From Bacteroidetes bacterium SB0662_bin_6 (GTDB lineage: Bacteria; Bacteroidota; Rhodothermia; Rhodothermales; VXPQ01): a DNA stretch of 64,000 bases. Under the pieces are notes generated by a model. It made no database searches. It saw only the letters and a list, made by a program, of their open reading frames with translations, and was not told the origin of the DNA. How positions within the stretch are numbered: position 1 is the first letter of the stretch; each line of letters opens with the position of its first letter. The stretch spans positions 1 to 64,000 of the forward strand of contig VXPQ01000058.1 of NCBI GenBank assembly GCA_009839485.1, written 5' to 3'. Both the position numbers and the translations under genes were made by a program. Below, in pieces: positions 7,287 through 50,455 of this stretch.

Positions 7287-7355
7287 AGATACTCTGATCA
7301 AAACCACTTCGCTCAGCCCCTGAACTTTGCGGACTTAATCAGAGTATCCTTTAAC
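7282..7355. repeat. Family A inverted repeat, copy A1 (full length, 74 bp)
   Basis: The left arm GTTAAAGATACTCTGATCAA pairs with the right arm TTAATCAGAGTATCCTTTAAC. The asymmetric centre (CCACTTCGCTCAG ... AACTTTGCGGAC) is matched in reverse complement by the copy at 24566-24644. It overlaps the TAA stop of the outer-membrane protein gene and lies before the TPR gene. There is no T-tract after the stem, so it is not a standard intrinsic terminator. Confidence 0.85.
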
Positions 7356-14328: not shown

Positions 14329-14365
14329 GGATACTCCGATGAAGTCCGCTTCGATCAGAGTATCC
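14329..14365. repeat. Family A inverted repeat, copy A2 (short form, 37 bp)
   Basis: The arm GGATACTCCGATGAAG pairs with CTTCGATCAGAGTATCC around a short TCCG loop. It lies between two convergent genes, lptD ending at 14319 and the ABC ATPase ending at 14369, where it could act as a bidirectional transcription stop. No T-tract follows. Confidence 0.8.
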
Positions 14366-15423: not shown

Positions 15424-15450
15424 ATTAGGGTCTGTTAACACTATGCAGCA
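15424..15450 (+). repeat. Family B dispersed repeat, copy B2 (core form)
   Basis: ATTAGGGTCTGTTAACACTA followed by TGCAGCA, the best representative of the family B core. It lies between sucC and the ABC ATPase gene, which are both on the minus strand. The long-form extension GCGCTCTGCGGGGCCT seen at 29 kb is absent here. Confidence 0.75.
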
Positions 15451-22926: not shown

Positions 22927-23061
22927 TTTAGGGCCCCGATCAGGTTGTTTTTTTATGACGGCGCCAGGGCCCCGAGCGGGTCGTTTTTCATGACGGCGCT
23001 AAAGCGCCGAGCGGGTTGTTTCCTTATGACGGCGCCAAGGCGCCGATCAGGTCGCTTTTGG
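22927..23061 (-). repeat. Tandem 35-36 bp repeats copied from the 3' end of the cystathionine beta-synthase gene
   Basis: Three imperfect units (about 22927-22954 partial, 22955-22989, 22990-23025) follow the coding copy at 23026-23061. On the minus strand each reads as a variant of the gene's last codons (DLIGALAPS then stop), for example NNPLGALAPS followed by a stop. Each unit contains a small GGCGC/GCGCC hairpin, so the array could act as a series of weak transcription stops between this gene and iolG. Confidence 0.8.
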
Positions 23062-24409
23062 TGATGATCTGATACGTTTCTCCCGGTTCCGCCTTCACGA
23101 GCACGGCTCCGCCGCCCCGCTCAAGGTACATGGAAAGATGCTCAAGGCCAAGTGAACGCGGAACCACAGGGAAAGGAGCATCCATGATGCCTTCTACAGG
23201 CTGGTCTCGCGTTTCCGGATCCTTGATGAGGCGATCGATAATCACGCTTTCGGTAAGGCTTCCAATAAGCTCATCGTTTTGCATCACGGGCATCTGTGAG
23301 ATGCCGCGCTCGGCCATGACCCCGATTACCGAACCAAGGGTGTCTTCAGGCAGGGCAAACGCCAACTCGTCGTTACCATTCCGGGCGTCCAGAACCCGAT
23401 CGACGGTAACCTCCGGCATACTTGACAGAAAACCGTGGTTGCGCATCCAATTGTCATTGAATGTCTTCGAAAGATACCGGAAGCCCGAATCGGGCAAAAG
23501 CAACACGAACACATCGTCGCTGGAAAGCTGCCCGGCGTGCGCTTCGATCCACGACAGGGCGCCTGCAAGCGCCATACCGGAAGACTGTCCGCAAAACAGG
23601 CCTTCTTCCGCGGCAAGCCGCCGCGCCATCTGCATCGCTTCTCTATCCGTTACCTGCACAAAATCGTCCAGCACGTCGAAATCCATGTTTGCCGCCAGCA
23701 GGTCCTCTCCGACCCCTTCGGTCAGATAGGGATAAATGTCGCCCGGATCAACCTTCCCGGTATGAAAATACCCATGATAGATCGAGCCATACGGATCCAC
23801 GCCTATAACCTGCACGTTCGGATTCCGCTCTTTCAGATAGCGCGATACGCCGGAAAGCGTTCCGCCCGTGCCTGCCCCGCCTACATAATGGGTGATCCGC
23901 CCATCCGTGCCTTCCCATATCTCGGGCCCGGTCGTTTCGTAATGGGCGGCTCGATTTGCGGGGTTGTCATACTGGTTCAGGTATACCGCACCAGGAATTT
24001 CTTCGGCAAGACGCTGCGCGACGGAATAGTAGGACCTTGGATCCTCCGGGGCTACGTTGGTAGGACATACAATCACCTCGGCGCCCAACGCCCGCAAAAC
24101 ATCCAGTTTTTCCTGACTCTGTTTGTCGGTGGTCGTAAAAATGCACCGGTACCCGCGCGTCACGGCAGTCATGGCCAACGCAGCGCCCGTATTGCCGCTC
24201 GTGCCTTCGACGATGGTGCCCCCCGGCCCTAACAGACCGTTCTGCTCGGCCTCTTCGATCATGGCCACGCCGATACGATCCTTAACGGATCCGCCCGGAT
24301 TGAAATATTCCAGCTTGGCCAGCACCGTACAAGGACAGTCCGCCGTAATGCTGCGAAGCTGTACGAGAGGTGTCTTGCCTATTGTGCCGGTGATATTTTC
24401 GTGCCACAT
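23024..24409 (-). CDS. Cystathionine beta-synthase (PLP domain plus CBS-domain pair)
   Basis: PLP enzyme condensing serine with homocysteine in transsulfuration. About 461 residues. The fold-type II catalytic domain has ITGTIGKTPLVQL, the PLP lysine in NPGGSVKDRIG (residue ~43), EGTSGNTGAALAMTA, VGGAGTGGTLSGVSRYLKE and GQSSGMALAG. Two CBS modules occupy about residues 350-461, as in the eukaryotic-type enzyme, without the N-terminal heme domain. An O-acetylserine sulfhydrylase role is less likely given the CBS modules. The ATG at 24409 follows GGAAAG. The last codons are repeated downstream in tandem. Confidence 0.9.
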   Translation of the reverse strand: MWHENITGTIGKTPLVQLRSITADCPCTVLAKLEYFNPGGSVKDRIGVAMIEEAEQNGLLGPGGTIVEGTSGNTGAALAMTAVTRGYRCIFTTTDKQSQEKLDVLRALGAEVIVCPTNVAPEDPRSYYSVAQRLAEEIPGAVYLNQYDNPANRAAHYETTGPEIWEGTDGRITHYVGGAGTGGTLSGVSRYLKERNPNVQVIGVDPYGSIYHGYFHTGKVDPGDIYPYLTEGVGEDLLAANMDFDVLDDFVQVTDREAMQMARRLAAEEGLFCGQSSGMALAGALSWIEAHAGQLSSDDVFVLLLPDSGFRYLSKTFNDNWMRNHGFLSSMPEVTVDRVLDARNGNDELAFALPEDTLGSVIGVMAERGISQMPVMQNDELIGSLTESVIIDRLIKDPETRDQPVEGIMDAPFPVVPRSLGLEHLSMYLERGGGAVLVKAEPGETYQIITKSDLIGALAPS

Positions 24410-24565
24410 AATGCTGCTTTCCGATGGTACTGTCTTGCGCGTGTGGTACGCATAAGATCCCGTTTTGCTCGCTTCTTGCATGCCCCCTATTGTAAAATTC
24501 TTGCAACGAAAAGGGCTGACGAAAAAAACAAACGGGGTGGAGCAGAATAGGAACAGGCTTGCAAA

Positions 24566-24644
24566 GGATACTCTGAATAGCGCTAACAGACCCTAAGTCC
24601 GCAAAGCTCAGAGGCTGAGAGAGGTGGGTTTGATCAGAGTATCC
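24566..24644. repeat. Family A inverted repeat, copy A4, containing a family B fragment
   Basis: The left end GGATACTCTGA and right end TTTGATCAGAGTATCC bound the element. From TAAGTCCGCAAAG onward it aligns base by base with the reverse complement of A1 with about five differences. Between the left end and that point there is an extra stretch of about 17 bases, part of a family B match (24577-24596). Confidence 0.8.
24577..24596 (-). repeat. Family B fragment, copy B3, nested in A4
   Basis: ATAGCGCTAACAGACCCTAA differs at only two positions from the reverse complement of the B2 core (ATAGTGTTAACAGACCCTAA). It is shorter than the other B copies and lies inside a family A element. Confidence 0.7.
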
Positions 24645-24826
24645 TTAAAAATACCCGCATATTGGCAGACAACACAGTTGGCCCGGTTTTTGATGATACT
24701 CCATTTTCCCCACTCGCTTTTCGCCTTCAGGGGTATGATTGCACACATAGACCTGGCGCGTCGTATTTTCTACTTGTACTGACCGAGGCGCCTGCTGCCT
24801 GCTGCCTCGCACACCGGAACGCCTTT

Positions 24827-27373
24827 ATGCCCGCACGGGAAACATATCCGTATACAAGCAACCACAGCGCCCGCGACGTCGATGACGCCGAGCAATTCAT
24901 TCCATTCCCGACGCCCGCCGAAGAAAAGCAAATGGGCATGTCGGACATACCGGAAGAGTTGCCCGTGCTGGCGCTCCGCAATACCGTGCTGTATCCGGGA
25001 GTGGTACTGCCTATCACGCTCGGCCGGGATGCGTCCATGCAGCTTGTAAAGGATGCTTTTGACGGAAAACGTATCATCGGGGCTGTTGCACAGAAACGGA
25101 GCGAGGTGGAAACGCCCGGTACGGAAGACCTGTACCGTCTCGGCACCGTGGCCGATATTCTAAAGTTGATCAAGATTCCGGGTGGCCCCAACTCAATGAT
25201 CATCCAGGGGAAACGCCGCTTTGAAATAAATGAGTACATACAAACCGAGCCGTATTTCAGGGCCAGTGTGTCCCCGATCGCAGAGGATTGGGCCACGGAT
25301 GAGGTAGAACTCAAAGCTCGTATCCGATCCGTCAAGGAACTGGCCATCCAGTTCATCAATCTTTCGCCCCATTTGCCGGGGGAAGCCGCCCTTGCCATTC
25401 AGCAGATCGATTCGCCGCCCCTGCTCATCCATTTTATCGCCTCGAATCTTCAGATCAGCGTAGAGGAAAAACAGGCGCTCCTCGAACTCAACGAACTGAC
25501 CCTGCGAGCCGATAAACTAATGGAGTACCTGAATCGCGAGATCCAGGTACTGCAAGTTTCTGAAGACATCCGCAGCCGCGTGCGGACGGACGTGGACAAG
25601 CAGCAGCGCGAATATCTGCTGCGCCAGCAGATGAAAATCATCCAGGACGAACTGGGCGAAAGCGAAAGCGCCGGCGACGACGTGCAGGAACTTCGCAGCC
25701 GGGCCGAAAAGAAAGAACTTCCGGACTATGTGCGAGAAACGCTGGACAAGGAAATAACGCGTCTGGCGCGCTCCAACCCTGCCTCCCCGGATTATGCCGT
25801 CACGCGCAACTACCTGGACTGGTTGCTGGAACTGCCGTGGCTCGAATATTCGAAAGATGACCTGGATATTACACGGGCCGCCGAGGTACTCGACGAAGAT
25901 CACTACGGACTGGATCAGGTCAAAAAGCGTATTCTGGAATATCTCGCGGTCCTGCACCTGAAAGGCGACATGAAAGCGCCCATTCTTTGCCTGCACGGCC
26001 CCCCCGGGGTCGGCAAAACGAGTCTGGGCAAAAGCATTGCCCGCGCCATCGGGCGCGAATTCGTGCGGATGAGCCTCGGCGGGATCCGGGACGAGGCGGA
26101 AATTCGCGGTCACCGGCGCACCTACGTGGCAGCGCTTCCCGGACGGATCATCCAGGGAATCAAAAAGGCGGGAGTCAACAACCCCGTCTTCATGCTGGAC
26201 GAAGTAGACAAGATAGGGGCGGATTTTCGGGGCGATCCGTCAAGCGCCCTTCTTGAAGTGTTGGATCCGGAGCAAAACGACAATTTCAACGACCACTACA
26301 TAGAACTGGACTACGACCTGTCAAAGGTCTTCTTCATCGCGACGGCGAATTTTCCGGAAATGATTCCCGGCCCCCTTCGGGACCGCATGGAGAGTATCGA
26401 AATCACCGGATACACCCAGGAAGAGAAGCTCCGGATCGCGAAGCAATACCTCGTGCCCCGTCAATTGGAGCATAACGGCCTCACGGCGGAACAAATGACC
26501 TTCGAAGATGAGGCCATCGGCACCATCATCGATGGATACACCCGCGAATCGGGCGTGCGCAAGCTGGAACGCACGATAGGCGCCGTAGCCCGGGGAGTCG
26601 CCAAGCAGATAGCCACGGGTGAAGCAGCCTCCGCAACGATCCGGGCGAAGGATCTTGAAAATTACCTGGGTGGGCGCAAGCATTTTCCGGAGGTTGCCCA
26701 ACGCACGGAAGTCCCCGGCGTGGCAACGGGTTTGGCCTGGACTCCGGTAGGCGGAGATATTCTTTTTATAGAAGCATCCGTATCCCGGGGAAACGGGAAA
26801 CAGGTCCTGACCGGCAAACTGGGCGAAGTAATGAAAGAATCCGCCCAGGCCGCTCTTTCGTATGTCAAATCACGCGCAGATACGCTCGGCATTCCGGAAG
26901 ATGCGTTCCGGCACTGGGACGTACACGTCCATGTGCCTGCAGGGGCGGTGCCGAAAGACGGGCCGTCTGCCGGCGCCGCCATGCTGAGCGCACTGGTATC
27001 TATCTATACACAGCGACGTGTCCGGCATGATGTGGCCATGACCGGTGAAATCACCCTGCGCGGACTGGTTCTGCCGGTTGGAGGCATCAAGGAGAAAGTA
27101 CTGGCTGCAAGACGTGCAGGTATCCGAACCGTGGTGCTTCCGGACAAGAACGAAAAGGACATCAAGGAAATTGCCGACGGCGCGCTGGAAGGCCTGGAAA
27201 TCCTTTTTGCCCATCGGGTAGAGGATGTTCTCGATCAGGTGCTGGAGGAAAAACCGGTCACTGATGTGCAGGAGATGTTCTGCATCTCTCCTGAGGAGAA
27301 GCATGCCGAAAAACCGACTGCACAGGATGCCAATGGCTCGACAGTGGTGGATGTGGACGTAGAGATTGCCTGA
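24827..27373 (+). CDS. lon: ATP-dependent protease Lon
   Basis: Cytosolic AAA+ serine protease that degrades misfolded and regulatory proteins. About 848 residues: N-terminal substrate domain beginning [20 protein letters not shown], coiled-coil linker, AAA+ module with Walker [10 protein letters not shown] (about residues 391-399) and Walker [14 protein letters not shown], then the C-terminal protease domain with the catalytic Ser714 in [10 protein letters not shown] and Lys757 in [10 protein letters not shown]. Codons between 24662 and 24827 are open but not Lon-like, so the ATG at 24827 is preferred. An ATG at 24932 would still give a complete catalytic core. The final 40 residues are acidic and variable. 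Confidence 0.96.
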
Positions 27374-29167: not shown

Positions 29168-29211
29168 CTTAGGGTCTGTTACCACTATGCAGCAGCGCTC
29201 TGCGGGGCCTA
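29168..29211 (+). repeat. Family B dispersed repeat, copy B4 (long form)
   Basis: ACTTAGGGTCTGTTACCACT, then ATGCAGCAGCGC and TCTGCGGGGCCTAC. Its reverse complement aligns with B1 at the window start over the whole length. The last bases include the TAG stop codon of topA at 29209-29211. It lies between convergent rsgA and topA. Confidence 0.8.
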
Positions 29212-31803
29212 CTTCTTTGCCGGCCGCTTTTTGCGTGATCCACCCCGTGCGCCTTTTTTGGCGCCCGCCTTTGCGGCCAGCAGTTCGAGCGCCTTTTCCA
29301 GAGTGATTTCCTCAGGAGATACGCCTTTCGGGAGCGAGGCATTGGTCTTGCCGTGCTTCACATAGGGACCGTACCGCCCTTCCCGCACATCGACCGGATC
29401 GCCGCTTTCCGGATGATTTCCCAACACCCGAAGCGGACCCGCCGCCTTCCCGGATTGCGCCAGAAGGGCAAGGGCGCGATCCAGTCCTACAACAAGGACG
29501 TCGTCCGCTTCCGTAAGCGAAACGAAGGCTCGTTCGTGCTGCACATAGGGGCCATACCGACCGATATTTGCGAGAACCGGTTTGCCCGTCCCGGGATGCT
29601 TGCCCAGCGCCCGCGGCAACTCCAGGAGCGCAAGCGCCATCTCCGGATCCACGGCATCCATAGGCGTTCCCTTGGGCAACGAAACACGCCTGGGCTTGCC
29701 TTTCACCTCCTCTGTCCGGCCCAGTTGCACGTAGGGACCATAGGGACCGCTGCGAACCAGTACATCCAGCCCTTCATCCGGATGCTTGCAGATCGTACGC
29801 TCTTCGTTTCCCTCGGAGGACGTCTCAAGCAAGGCGCGCAGATCTTCTGCAGCGATATCGCCAGGCGGTAACTCCCTGGGCACAGAGGCGCGAACGGAGG
29901 CACCGTCCACCTCCCCTTCCACGTACGGACCGTATCTTCCTACCCGTACGACCATTCCATCCCATTTCGGCGAACGGACCGTCGATATCTTTCGGGGGTC
30001 AATACCCTCCTGCCCGGCCTGCACCTGCTCGACAAGTCCCCCATCACCGAGATAAAAATGCTCAAGCCACCCCGCCGATGTACGATCTCCCGTCGCAATG
30101 TCATCCAGAATCTGTTCCATGCCTGCAGTAAATCCCACATCGACCAGTTGTTCAAACTGGTCTTCGAGTAGCTGGACGGCTGCAAACGCCGTAAACGTGG
30201 GCGCCAGCTGCGACCCGTTGCGGCGCACATAGTCGCGGCGGACAATCGTTTCGATAATCGAAGCATAGGTGCTGGGCCGTCCGATACCCTCCTTTTCAAG
30301 CATCCGGACCAGCGTGGCCTCCGTGTAGCGGGCAGGAGGCTTCGTCTCGTGCGCTACGGTTTCCACCTTGCGGCAATCCGGCTGGTCGCCTTCGGCCATC
30401 TGCGGCAATGGATTGTCGCGGTCCTCGAGCGCAGCCTCCGGATCGTCGGACCCTTCCACATAGGCCCGGTAGAACCCGGGAAATTCGATCCGCTTTCCTG
30501 ATGCCCGGAACCGGGCCGCTTCTTCTCCTTCACCGGCTTCGATACGAACCGTCACCCTGCGCACCCGCGCATCGGCCATCTGGCCGGCTACCGTACGTTT
30601 CCAGATAAGATCGTACAGGGCGCCCTCGGCGCCGCTCAAACCCAGTTCGTCCCTGGTTTTCATGGCGCTGCCGGCAGGTCGAATCGCCTCATGCGCTTCC
30701 TGGGCATTCGCGACCTTGCTCCGATAGCGTCTGGGTTTCGGACTCAGATATTCCTTGCCGTACCGCCTTTCGACCGCCTTCCGGCTTCCACGTATGGCCT
30801 CGTCCGAAAGCTGGGTCGAGTCGGTCCGCATATAGGTGATCAGTCCCTGCTCGTAGAGGCGCTGCGCGATTTGCATGGTCCGGCGCGCAGAAAGGCCCAG
30901 TTTGCGGCTTCCTTCCTGTTGCAGCGTGGACGTGATAAAAGGGGGATAAGGAGATTGGGAAGATACCCGATCCTCTACCCGGACCACGCGCCATGTCCGG
31001 TTCGGCAGCGAGGCAACCAGCGCCCCGGCCTGCTCTTCCCCCAGCAGAAGCAGATCCTTACCGGGAACGAGGCCCTCCCTGAGTTGTCCGGTATGATCGT
31101 CGAAGTCCTTGCCCACGGCGAGCCGGACCCCTCCGTAATGCGTCATCTCCGCGGTGAATGTCTCCCCCCGTACCGCGAGAAGAGCCTTCAGGTCAAGCCA
31201 GAGCGCCGGTACAAAAGCCATCCGCTCTTTCTCCCGATTCACAAGCAACCGGGTCGCCACGCTCTGTACGCGCCCGGCCGACAGGCCCTTGGCGATTTTG
31301 CGCCAGAGAAGCGGGGATATGCTGTATCCGACCAGACGATCGAGTATACGGCGCGTCTCTTGCGCATCCACAAGGCTTCGATCGATGCCTCTCGTTTCCT
31401 CCAGTGCGCGCTGGATGGCAGACCGCGTGATTTCGTGAAACACCATGCGCCGCACGGGAATCGTGGGCGCCAGCACCTCGACGATATGCCACCCTATCGA
31501 TTCGCCTTCACGGTCTTCGTCCGTAGCGATATACAACTCATCAGCCGACTTGATCGCCTTGCGCAACCGCTCCACGACCTTTTTTTTCTCGGGCGAAACC
31601 ACATAAACGGGAGCAAACCCTTTGGTCACGTCCACACCGTAGTGCTCCCACAGTTGCTCCCGGCGGGCCTTCGGTATTTCGGAGGCGGACTGGGGCAGAT
31701 CCCGTATGTGCCCCATGCTTGCCTCCACCTGGCAATCCGCCGGCAGAAAATTCCGGATTGTCCGGGCTTTGGTGGGAGATTCGACGACAACCAGTCGCTT
31801 CAT
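29209..31803 (-). CDS. topA: DNA topoisomerase I
   Basis: Type IA enzyme that relaxes negative supercoils. 864 residues: N-terminal Toprim domain (VVVESPTKARTIRNFL, then TDEDREGESIGWHI with acidic metal ligands), the catalytic tyrosine in YMRTDSTQLS (Tyr324), and PSTYASIIETIVRRDYV. The C-terminal third carries several topoisomerase C-terminal repeats, each with a GRYGPYV-type motif, instead of Cys4 zinc fingers. It ends in a Lys/Arg-rich tail. The stop codon lies inside repeat B4. It is divergent from ppdK. Confidence 0.97.
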   Translation of the reverse strand: MKRLVVVESPTKARTIRNFLPADCQVEASMGHIRDLPQSASEIPKARREQLWEHYGVDVTKGFAPVYVVSPEKKKVVERLRKAIKSADELYIATDEDREGESIGWHIVEVLAPTIPVRRMVFHEITRSAIQRALEETRGIDRSLVDAQETRRILDRLVGYSISPLLWRKIAKGLSAGRVQSVATRLLVNREKERMAFVPALWLDLKALLAVRGETFTAEMTHYGGVRLAVGKDFDDHTGQLREGLVPGKDLLLLGEEQAGALVASLPNRTWRVVRVEDRVSSQSPYPPFITSTLQQEGSRKLGLSARRTMQIAQRLYEQGLITYMRTDSTQLSDEAIRGSRKAVERRYGKEYLSPKPRRYRSKVANAQEAHEAIRPAGSAMKTRDELGLSGAEGALYDLIWKRTVAGQMADARVRRVTVRIEAGEGEEAARFRASGKRIEFPGFYRAYVEGSDDPEAALEDRDNPLPQMAEGDQPDCRKVETVAHETKPPARYTEATLVRMLEKEGIGRPSTYASIIETIVRRDYVRRNGSQLAPTFTAFAAVQLLEDQFEQLVDVGFTAGMEQILDDIATGDRTSAGWLEHFYLGDGGLVEQVQAGQEGIDPRKISTVRSPKWDGMVVRVGRYGPYVEGEVDGASVRASVPRELPPGDIAAEDLRALLETSSEGNEERTICKHPDEGLDVLVRSGPYGPYVQLGRTEEVKGKPRRVSLPKGTPMDAVDPEMALALLELPRALGKHPGTGKPVLANIGRYGPYVQHERAFVSLTEADDVLVVGLDRALALLAQSGKAAGPLRVLGNHPESGDPVDVREGRYGPYVKHGKTNASLPKGVSPEEITLEKALELLAAKAGAKKGARGGSRKKRPAKK

Positions 31804-41255: not shown

Positions 41256-42260
41256 ATGGCGCGCCTGCTCACCTTTGCTGAAATCCGCGCCGGCCGCATC
41301 ACGCGCCTGTCGCTGGAAGCGCTCTCGCGCTGCCGGGAAATCGCCGGGAAACGTCATGGAAGTACGGTAGCTGCTGCCGTCATGTCCGATAATCCCGGTG
41401 CGTATTTCGAGGAATTGGCCCGTTACGGAGTAGAGGAGGTGTTCGCCGTAACCGATACGGCATTTGCATCTCCACCCGGAATGCCCCTGAGTGCGCCTCT
41501 GACCGCGGCGCTCGCCGGCATTATCGGACAGGCTGCCCCTGATGTGGTCGTGCTTCCTTCCGAGGAAAGCGTGAAGGAAATCCTGGGGGCGCTGGCTGTA
41601 CGGATTTCTGCACCGGCGCTTCCTGATGTATCCGGCTTCGACGTACTTGATGGTGCGGTTACGGCGCAACGCCCCGTATTCACCGCCGGTTTCATAGCTC
41701 ATGTTCGGGCAGAAGGCAGCCCCGTGCTGGTATCGCTGCGGGCCGGTTCGTACGCCGCCTCCGAGAAGTCTGAGCCCTCCTCCCAGCACGTCCGGAATGT
41801 CCCGTTCGCATTCGATGAGAAGGTTTCCGGGAAAACATTACGCGAGGTAGTAAAAGCAGCTTCCGGGGGGATTGACTTGTCGGAAGCATCCGTGGTGGTG
41901 GCCGCGGGGCGCGGGGTGCGCGACAAGGAAGGCAAACGGCTGGTCGAAGAACTTGCGGCGCTTTTGGGAGCAGCAATCGGCGCGTCGCGAGGCGCCATCG
42001 AGGCCGGACTTTTTCCACCCTCGTCCCTGATCGGACAAACCGGAAAAACCGTTTCTCCGGACGTGTACATTGCGGTTGGCATCTCAGGAGCCCTGCAACA
42101 TGTGGCAGGGATGTCCGGCAGCCGAGCCGTGATCGCCATTAACAAGGACGCCGACGCACCCGTTTTTCGTCATGCGACCTATGGAATTACAGGTGATCTG
42201 TATGAGGTACTGCCCGCCTTTATCGAGGCACTGAAGAAAAAATCCTCAACGGCCAACTAG
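41256..42260 (+). CDS. etfA: Electron transfer flavoprotein alpha subunit
   Basis: 334 residues: an N-terminal domain (RAGRITRLSLEALSRCREIA) and the C-terminal FAD domain with VVVAAGRGVRDKEGKRLVEE, GASRGAIEAGLFP, IGQTGKTVSPDVYIAVGISG and INKDADAPVFRHATYGITGD, which hold the FAD. It forms the heterodimer with EtfB. Its TAG stop at 42258-42260 lies inside repeat B5. It is the natural electron acceptor for the GcdH-like dehydrogenase in this window. Confidence 0.95.
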   Translation: MARLLTFAEIRAGRITRLSLEALSRCREIAGKRHGSTVAAAVMSDNPGAYFEELARYGVEEVFAVTDTAFASPPGMPLSAPLTAALAGIIGQAAPDVVVLPSEESVKEILGALAVRISAPALPDVSGFDVLDGAVTAQRPVFTAGFIAHVRAEGSPVLVSLRAGSYAASEKSEPSSQHVRNVPFAFDEKVSGKTLREVVKAASGGIDLSEASVVVAAGRGVRDKEGKRLVEELAALLGAAIGASRGAIEAGLFPPSSLIGQTGKTVSPDVYIAVGISGALQHVAGMSGSRAVIAINKDADAPVFRHATYGITGDLYEVLPAFIEALKKKSSTAN

Positions 42261-42280
42261 GGCCTTTTAATACTATGCAG
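42257..42280 (+). repeat. Family B dispersed repeat, copy B5 (diverged)
   Basis: CTAGGGCCTTTTAATACTAT followed by GCAG matches the B core with several substitutions. It starts at the TAG stop codon of etfA. Confidence 0.55.
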
Positions 42281-44327: not shown

Positions 44328-44374
44328 GTTAAGACGCTCTGATCAATTCCACTTTGATCAAAGCATCCGTTAAC
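44328..44374. repeat. Family A inverted repeat, copy A7
   Basis: GTTAAGACGCTCTGATCAA and TTTGATCAAAGCATCCGTTAAC form an inverted repeat around a six-base spacer. GTTAA occurs on both sides of the GACGCTCT...AGCATCC core, a possible short target duplication. The right flank GTTAACACT is also the centre of the family B core. It lies in the divergent region between the A-type carrier gene and sufB. Confidence 0.75.
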
Positions 44375-50418: not shown

Positions 50419-50455
50419 GGATACCCTGATTAAGTCCACAAAGATCAGAGTATCC
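50419..50455. repeat. Family A inverted repeat, copy A8 (short form)
   Basis: GGATACCCTGATTAAGTCC and GATCAGAGTATCC form an inverted repeat around ACAAA. It starts 6 bases after the stop of the SufT-like gene. It separates the suf cluster from modB and overlaps the upstream GTG-frame of modB. Confidence 0.8.

Follow-up and report, generated by a model that had tools for sequence, protein, structure and literature searches.

The 79-bp stretch at positions 24566-24644 of the window (the whole 64,000-nucleotide stretch analysed, on contig C58 of the 2.92-Mb draft genome G000) can be read with good confidence as the trace of one MITE inserted into another. A family A element of 63 bp (the A63 form) was in place first, a family B element inserted into the TA of its end, and B would later have been lost to a short scar, likely via nearly precise excision. 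With similar assurance, A is taken as a MITE family of IS5 type, old within a genus of Rhodothermales and made up of short non-coding elements; B is taken as a younger family of MITEs whose driver is another IS5-type element with TA, and by preference TTA, as insertion site. The original prediction, made from the DNA of the window, had described a B fragment nested inside an A element; beyond it, only one terminal repeat of B is left, as a scar.

The split A63 element (24566-24644, minus strand) occupies the spacer between a PALP/CBS gene (23024-24481, minus strand) and lon (24662-27373, plus strand). Its ends are GGATACTCTGA and TGATCAGAGTATCC. In comparison with 63-bp A copies, among them the intact A63 copy at 7287-7349 (plus strand), whose target GTTAAC is still empty in G003, it carries exactly 16 additional bp; the presence of extra bases had been recognized before, and their number, given as about 17, is corrected here. 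The insert is made up of a 14-bp B tip, GGGTCTGTTAGCGC in the minus-strand reading (24580-24593, minus strand), and a duplicated TA adjoining the outer B end (24594-24595), the partner of which lies at 24578-24579. The scar is flanked by TA on both sides and is placed in the TA of the terminal GACTTAATC of A. Base 24577 is A, the other A copies having T at this position. The minus strand of 24573-24596 differs from TTAGGGTCTGTTAACACTATGCAG at three positions; two lie within the 20-base B core, as the original prediction had counted, and the third falls outside it. The scar is one terminal repeat of the B parent, since the inverted repeat of that parent is GGGCCTGTTAACACTA. Downstream of the PALP/CBS gene, three direct repeats of 35-36 bp (GCGCCGA..GGTCGTTTTT type) were observed at 22933-23064.

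The order of events at the lon site was read from related genomes. In G004, the corresponding position upstream of lon has an A63 copy and no B; A therefore arrived first and B second. This comparison with a locus carrying A only had been proposed together with the suggestion that B inserted into A, which it bears out; about a dozen composites in G000 show the same pattern. No A was found at the lon site of G003, G002 and G005. The identity of Lon to that of the window genome is 95% in G005, 92% in G004, 90% in G003 and 85% in G002; the nearest genome, G005, is A-less, and A was therefore presumably lost there, a loss that is considered probable. No full-length B was found at this site in the genomes compared, and we infer a full insertion followed by loss. 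In the lon orthologues of G004, G003 and G002 (L101, L102 and L103), the reported open stretch is broken by one or two in-frame stops, which are perhaps located upstream of the true start, or reflect assembly errors or decay.

A ends were present in all six genomes searched within the genus. When 34 further genomes of the order were searched with the 13-base A pattern, two of them gave one or two stray matches. The sizes of A include 37, 63, 187 and 253-255 bp, its ends contain TTAA, and its target duplication is 4 bp (57 elements, z 6.9). The element folds as a hairpin over nearly its full length, better than shuffled sequence (z -8.7). Three 37-bp forms are found on the plus strand of the window: at 14329-14365, where the orthologous site of G002, G003 and G004 is without such an element; at 44332-44368, with GTTA on each side as target duplication; and at 50419-50455, with TAAA on each side. 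The end GTTAACACT of the copy called A7 in the original prediction (taken as 44332-44368) had been read as a hint of a junction shared with B. This string consists of the 4-bp target duplication and flank and needs no B, because A makes a 4-bp duplication and the copy has GTTA on both flanks. An odd symmetry of the flanks outside A, with complementary bases at -1 and +1, was likewise accounted for by the 4-bp target duplication, of YNNR type.

B ends were abundant in two of the six genus genomes (90 in G000 and 77 in G005), with one divergent match in G002 and none in the 34 other genomes of the order. Equal coordinates of its matches suggest that G005 is the MAG Rhodothermales bacterium IP30a_bin.15. 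The junction was TA at 66, CA at 18 and AA at four of 88 ends outside A in G000. Counted from the outer A of one end to that of the other, full-length B measures 267 bp; shorter forms also exist. Contig-edge ends were left out of the length classes, and the 14-bp and 38-bp forms were classed by direct reading; automatic classing caught one 14-bp copy and called some longer copies 38 bp. Like other MITEs, B is short, non-coding, bounded by paired terminal inverted repeats and multicopy; G000 has 267-bp full pairs and 98 ends in total, a full copy being counted twice. It also folds as a hairpin over nearly its full length (z -8.8, versus shuffled sequence). Further B ends of the window are located at its contig edge (56-77, minus strand, a match to the B pattern), at 15427-15448 (plus strand, outside A) and at 42259-42280 (plus strand), where the fragment provides the TAG stop of the ORF at 41256-42260. 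At 15427 about 7 bp of the G003/G004 sequence was replaced, and therefore not every remnant is exact.

B insertions were often observed in stop codons, with 42258-42260 as a case in the window. At 26 of 97 B ends, a frame that stays open for 100 codons or more ends just before the junction codon, the other two frames giving 9 and 14; these 26 junction codons comprise 23 TAG, one TAA and two CAG. With the 14-bp scar in either orientation, TA followed by G restores TAG. The 38-bp form of B at 29171-29211 borders the stop codon of topoisomerase I (gene 29209-31803, minus strand), which it apparently altered from TAA, the state in G005, to TAG.

A PF01609 profile search of the genus yielded nine matches in four of the six genomes and none in G000 or G005, which are both rich in B and both drafts, so that absence is not proof. 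B-type ends were found in five of the nine loci and A ends in three, all of G004; L331 has neither. The B parent is represented with both ends by L330 (G002, 854 bp) and L326 (G003, 853 bp), with TA flanks on both sides. Its terminal repeat GGGCCTGTTAACACTA is present at both ends (GGGCGTG.. in G003), and the B MITE shares only the outer 16 bases with this 853/854-bp parent. DUF4096 and DDE domains are found in its two ORFs, which in L330 match NF033580 (IS5_3) with 113.7 and 135.8 bits (cut-off 110). The candidate parent of A, L325, scores 142.9 bits to NF033581 (IS5_4, cut-off 140) and has an A end at 2098-2113; the left A end was not found within the locus. In all, pieces of two of the A-end loci of G004 match NF033581, the copies being broken or degraded. 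Six transposase-sized pairs of A or B ends, judged by ORF starts only, were taken for separate elements with genes between them. In G003, the B parent (L326, 1446-2298) was observed inside a solo A-type end, with ..GCGGACTTAATTA before it and TAGAGTATC.. after it; the A end is also a landing site for the full-length B parent in this genome.

Bacterial MITEs of the IS5 family are short, non-coding and multicopy, and their terminal inverted repeats and target-duplication size are those of the parent. A and B resemble them in being short and non-coding, in sharing terminal inverted repeats with a parent, in the parent-sized target duplication and in their many copies. Unlike in typical cases, two separate families are nested here at a recurrent site. 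The parents of B and A match the IS5-family models NF033580 (IS5_3) and NF033581 (IS5_4), respectively; a point of difference is that the A parent is seen only as broken copies in G004 and that the B parent was not found in G000.

Copies of B are retained at several lengths. Comparison with relatives covered eight 14-bp copies outside A. Four of them proved to be exact 14+TA insertions (C32:61062; C32:284782, with CA in relatives; C47:75313; and C24:16061, with TG in G003); in two others a few bp were replaced, and a two-sided alignment failed for the remaining two. Exact longer insertions were of 25 bp (C46:43895), 27 bp (C23:66168) and 39 bp (C48:5606). Shrinkage in place is seen at two sites: at C20:6390 G000 has the full 267 bp where G005 retains a 5-bp scar, and the copy at C35:35076, about 150 bp long in G005, measures 57 bp in G000. 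The microhomology near the tip amounts to four bases at a retained length of 38, and to three bases each at 14, 5 and 46. The observed lengths 5, 14 and 38 are among the best in a descriptive ranking by microhomology. Other T1 arm lengths with microhomology of at least three bases are 46, 80, 126, 127 and 131, which went unnoticed among the copies in the course of a non-systematic inspection. Read by eye, the junction is ACAG in the 25-bp form and GCATA in the 57-bp form.

That scar lengths appear to match short direct repeats close to both ends of the element would point to nearly precise excision. At the lon site, the A63 element was in place first, as G004 shows; B then entered the TA of its end, as its position and its absence in G004 show; and B would later have been lost, most likely by replication slippage, except for a single 14-bp terminal repeat and the duplicated TA. 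In DNA that is single-stranded during replication, the arms of B would pair as a hairpin, and synthesis could jump from a short repeat of the left arm (the CTA that follows position 13 or the GGCCTA that ends the 38-bp form) to the CCCTA of the right end. One point against this explanation is that the microhomology at length 14 is only three bases, which is weak for so many recurrences; the missing A in G005 and the missing full-length B at the lon site are others. Tn10-related elements of E. coli undergo nearly precise excision between short direct repeats near their ends and leave a small remnant, and a hairpin of the inverted repeats is proposed, according to the account of d'Alencon et al. 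given in PMC12524634. The B scars resemble that process, as described there, in the apparent loss between short end repeats, the proposed hairpin and the small remnant. Unlike the products of the plasmid assay, they arose naturally, at sizes of 5 to 57 bp and in two species, and the mechanism behind them is deduced.

The B transposase itself could have made the scar, with a correct cut at one end of B and, at the other end, a cut at the inner TA (position 15-16) of the terminal repeat, which would take out everything else and leave a single repeat. This would suit the repeat of L330, which is exactly GGGCCTGTTAACACTA at both ends, with 14+TA amounting to one whole repeat, and the recurrence of the same scar at eight well-evidenced loci (four in A and four outside). 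It is nevertheless rather unlikely, as the lengths of 5, 25, 27, 39 and 57 bp need different cuts and follow short repeats, and the PF01609 transposase was not found in the B-rich drafts. It is a little more doubtful still that the 16-bp single repeats are a regular enzyme-made product of this IS5-type system, arising by excision at the inner TA, so that one-repeat scars would slowly fill a genome and gather in A ends as a preferred landing site. Direct insertion of the 14-bp piece as a mobile micro-element is improbable: empty TA sites outside A that gained exactly 14+TA do look as if a 14-bp unit had transposed, but the piece has one terminal repeat only, and a single insertion can be full-length in one species and a scar at the same site in another.

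A fixed criterion places 10 of the 98 B ends of G000 at the TA of an A end, and two further composites were found by hand, at 29171 in the window and at C38:75319. In G005, a junction pattern that required at least 5 bases between B tip and A end, and was thus blind to the 14-bp form, had no match, which carries no weight as evidence. The expected number is 0.04 to 1.2, versus the ten observed, assuming 35-120 A-end sites among about 89,100 TAs, or among 9,460 outside ORFs with a crude coding mask. B thus lands in the TAs of A ends far above chance, and it does so repeatedly because A ends contain TTAA and B inserts at TA, preferably TTA. The second composite of the window holds a 38-bp form of B (29171-29209, plus strand) at what is an A end in G005 and G004 (ACTTAATCA..GTATCC). 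At C38:75319 B lies at another site in A63, and G004 has the A63 there without B. A without B was found in at least one relative at six composites other than that of lon (C9:84547, C32:332536, C53:37843, C35:16254, C38:75319 and C58:29171), which makes seven with the lon site included. At C38:55984 and C9:113401 the relatives compared are without A, so the order is unreadable; C47:83525 and C34:14855 were ambiguous in the comparison, C1:96 stood outside it, and the possible composites C9:14720 and C39:9841 were excluded from the count as unclear. An identical 14+TA insert at the same A position occurs at four loci (C58:24580, C9:113401, C53:37843 and C35:16254), so that the genome-wide search for composites with the same junction, called for in the original prediction, was successful.

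The identical junction in these four composites might reflect an A+B element that was formed once and then spread as a unit. This is very improbable, since the host A copies differ in size and flank, and a relative holds A without B at C58, C53 and C35. Nor did the alternative offered in the original prediction, that both families derive from one larger element, hold up, as A and B differ in their ends, target duplication (4 bp versus TA), distribution in the genus and parent transposases. That the 16 extra bp resemble B by chance, the match being short, can practically be discarded, because the B pattern has 74 matches genome-wide in G000 and the reversed-B control none, and three other A copies have inserts of like length and kind at this position. 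The match of 24573-24596 to B is beyond chance, and A and B are recurrently adjacent, the opposite of the two findings that had been named as evidence against the nesting.

B-type ends were also found in gammaproteobacterial MAGs, namely of Lysobacterales (3), a Lamellibrachia endosymbiont (11) and Competibacteraceae (25, with pairs of 268-269 bp). Interiors of the MITE from G000, Lysobacterales and Competibacteraceae align with 69-70% identity (z about 13 versus shuffles), and B is therefore a family that crosses phyla. The 267-269-bp B-type MITE or its ends in these three MAGs (L169, L173 and L192; G040-G042) was noted as a jump between phyla. Two viral matches to B ends (L199 and L200) were the same sequence in two records with no second end nearby, and were dropped as chance. 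A literature search with the terminal-repeat strings of A and B returned no relevant paper, its matches being solely to a 12-base piece of A and none concerning mobile elements by title, and no paper combining Rhodothermales with 'miniature inverted' was found.

A MITE inserted in a MITE and then lost to a scar is a known kind of event; the comparative record is here unusually complete. The related genomes, in which orthologous sites are empty, filled or scarred, form a natural record of nested insertion followed by shrinkage to scars of a few bases. This offers a reason for the 'solo end' repeats that litter such genomes, and it cautions against reading them as regulatory motifs.
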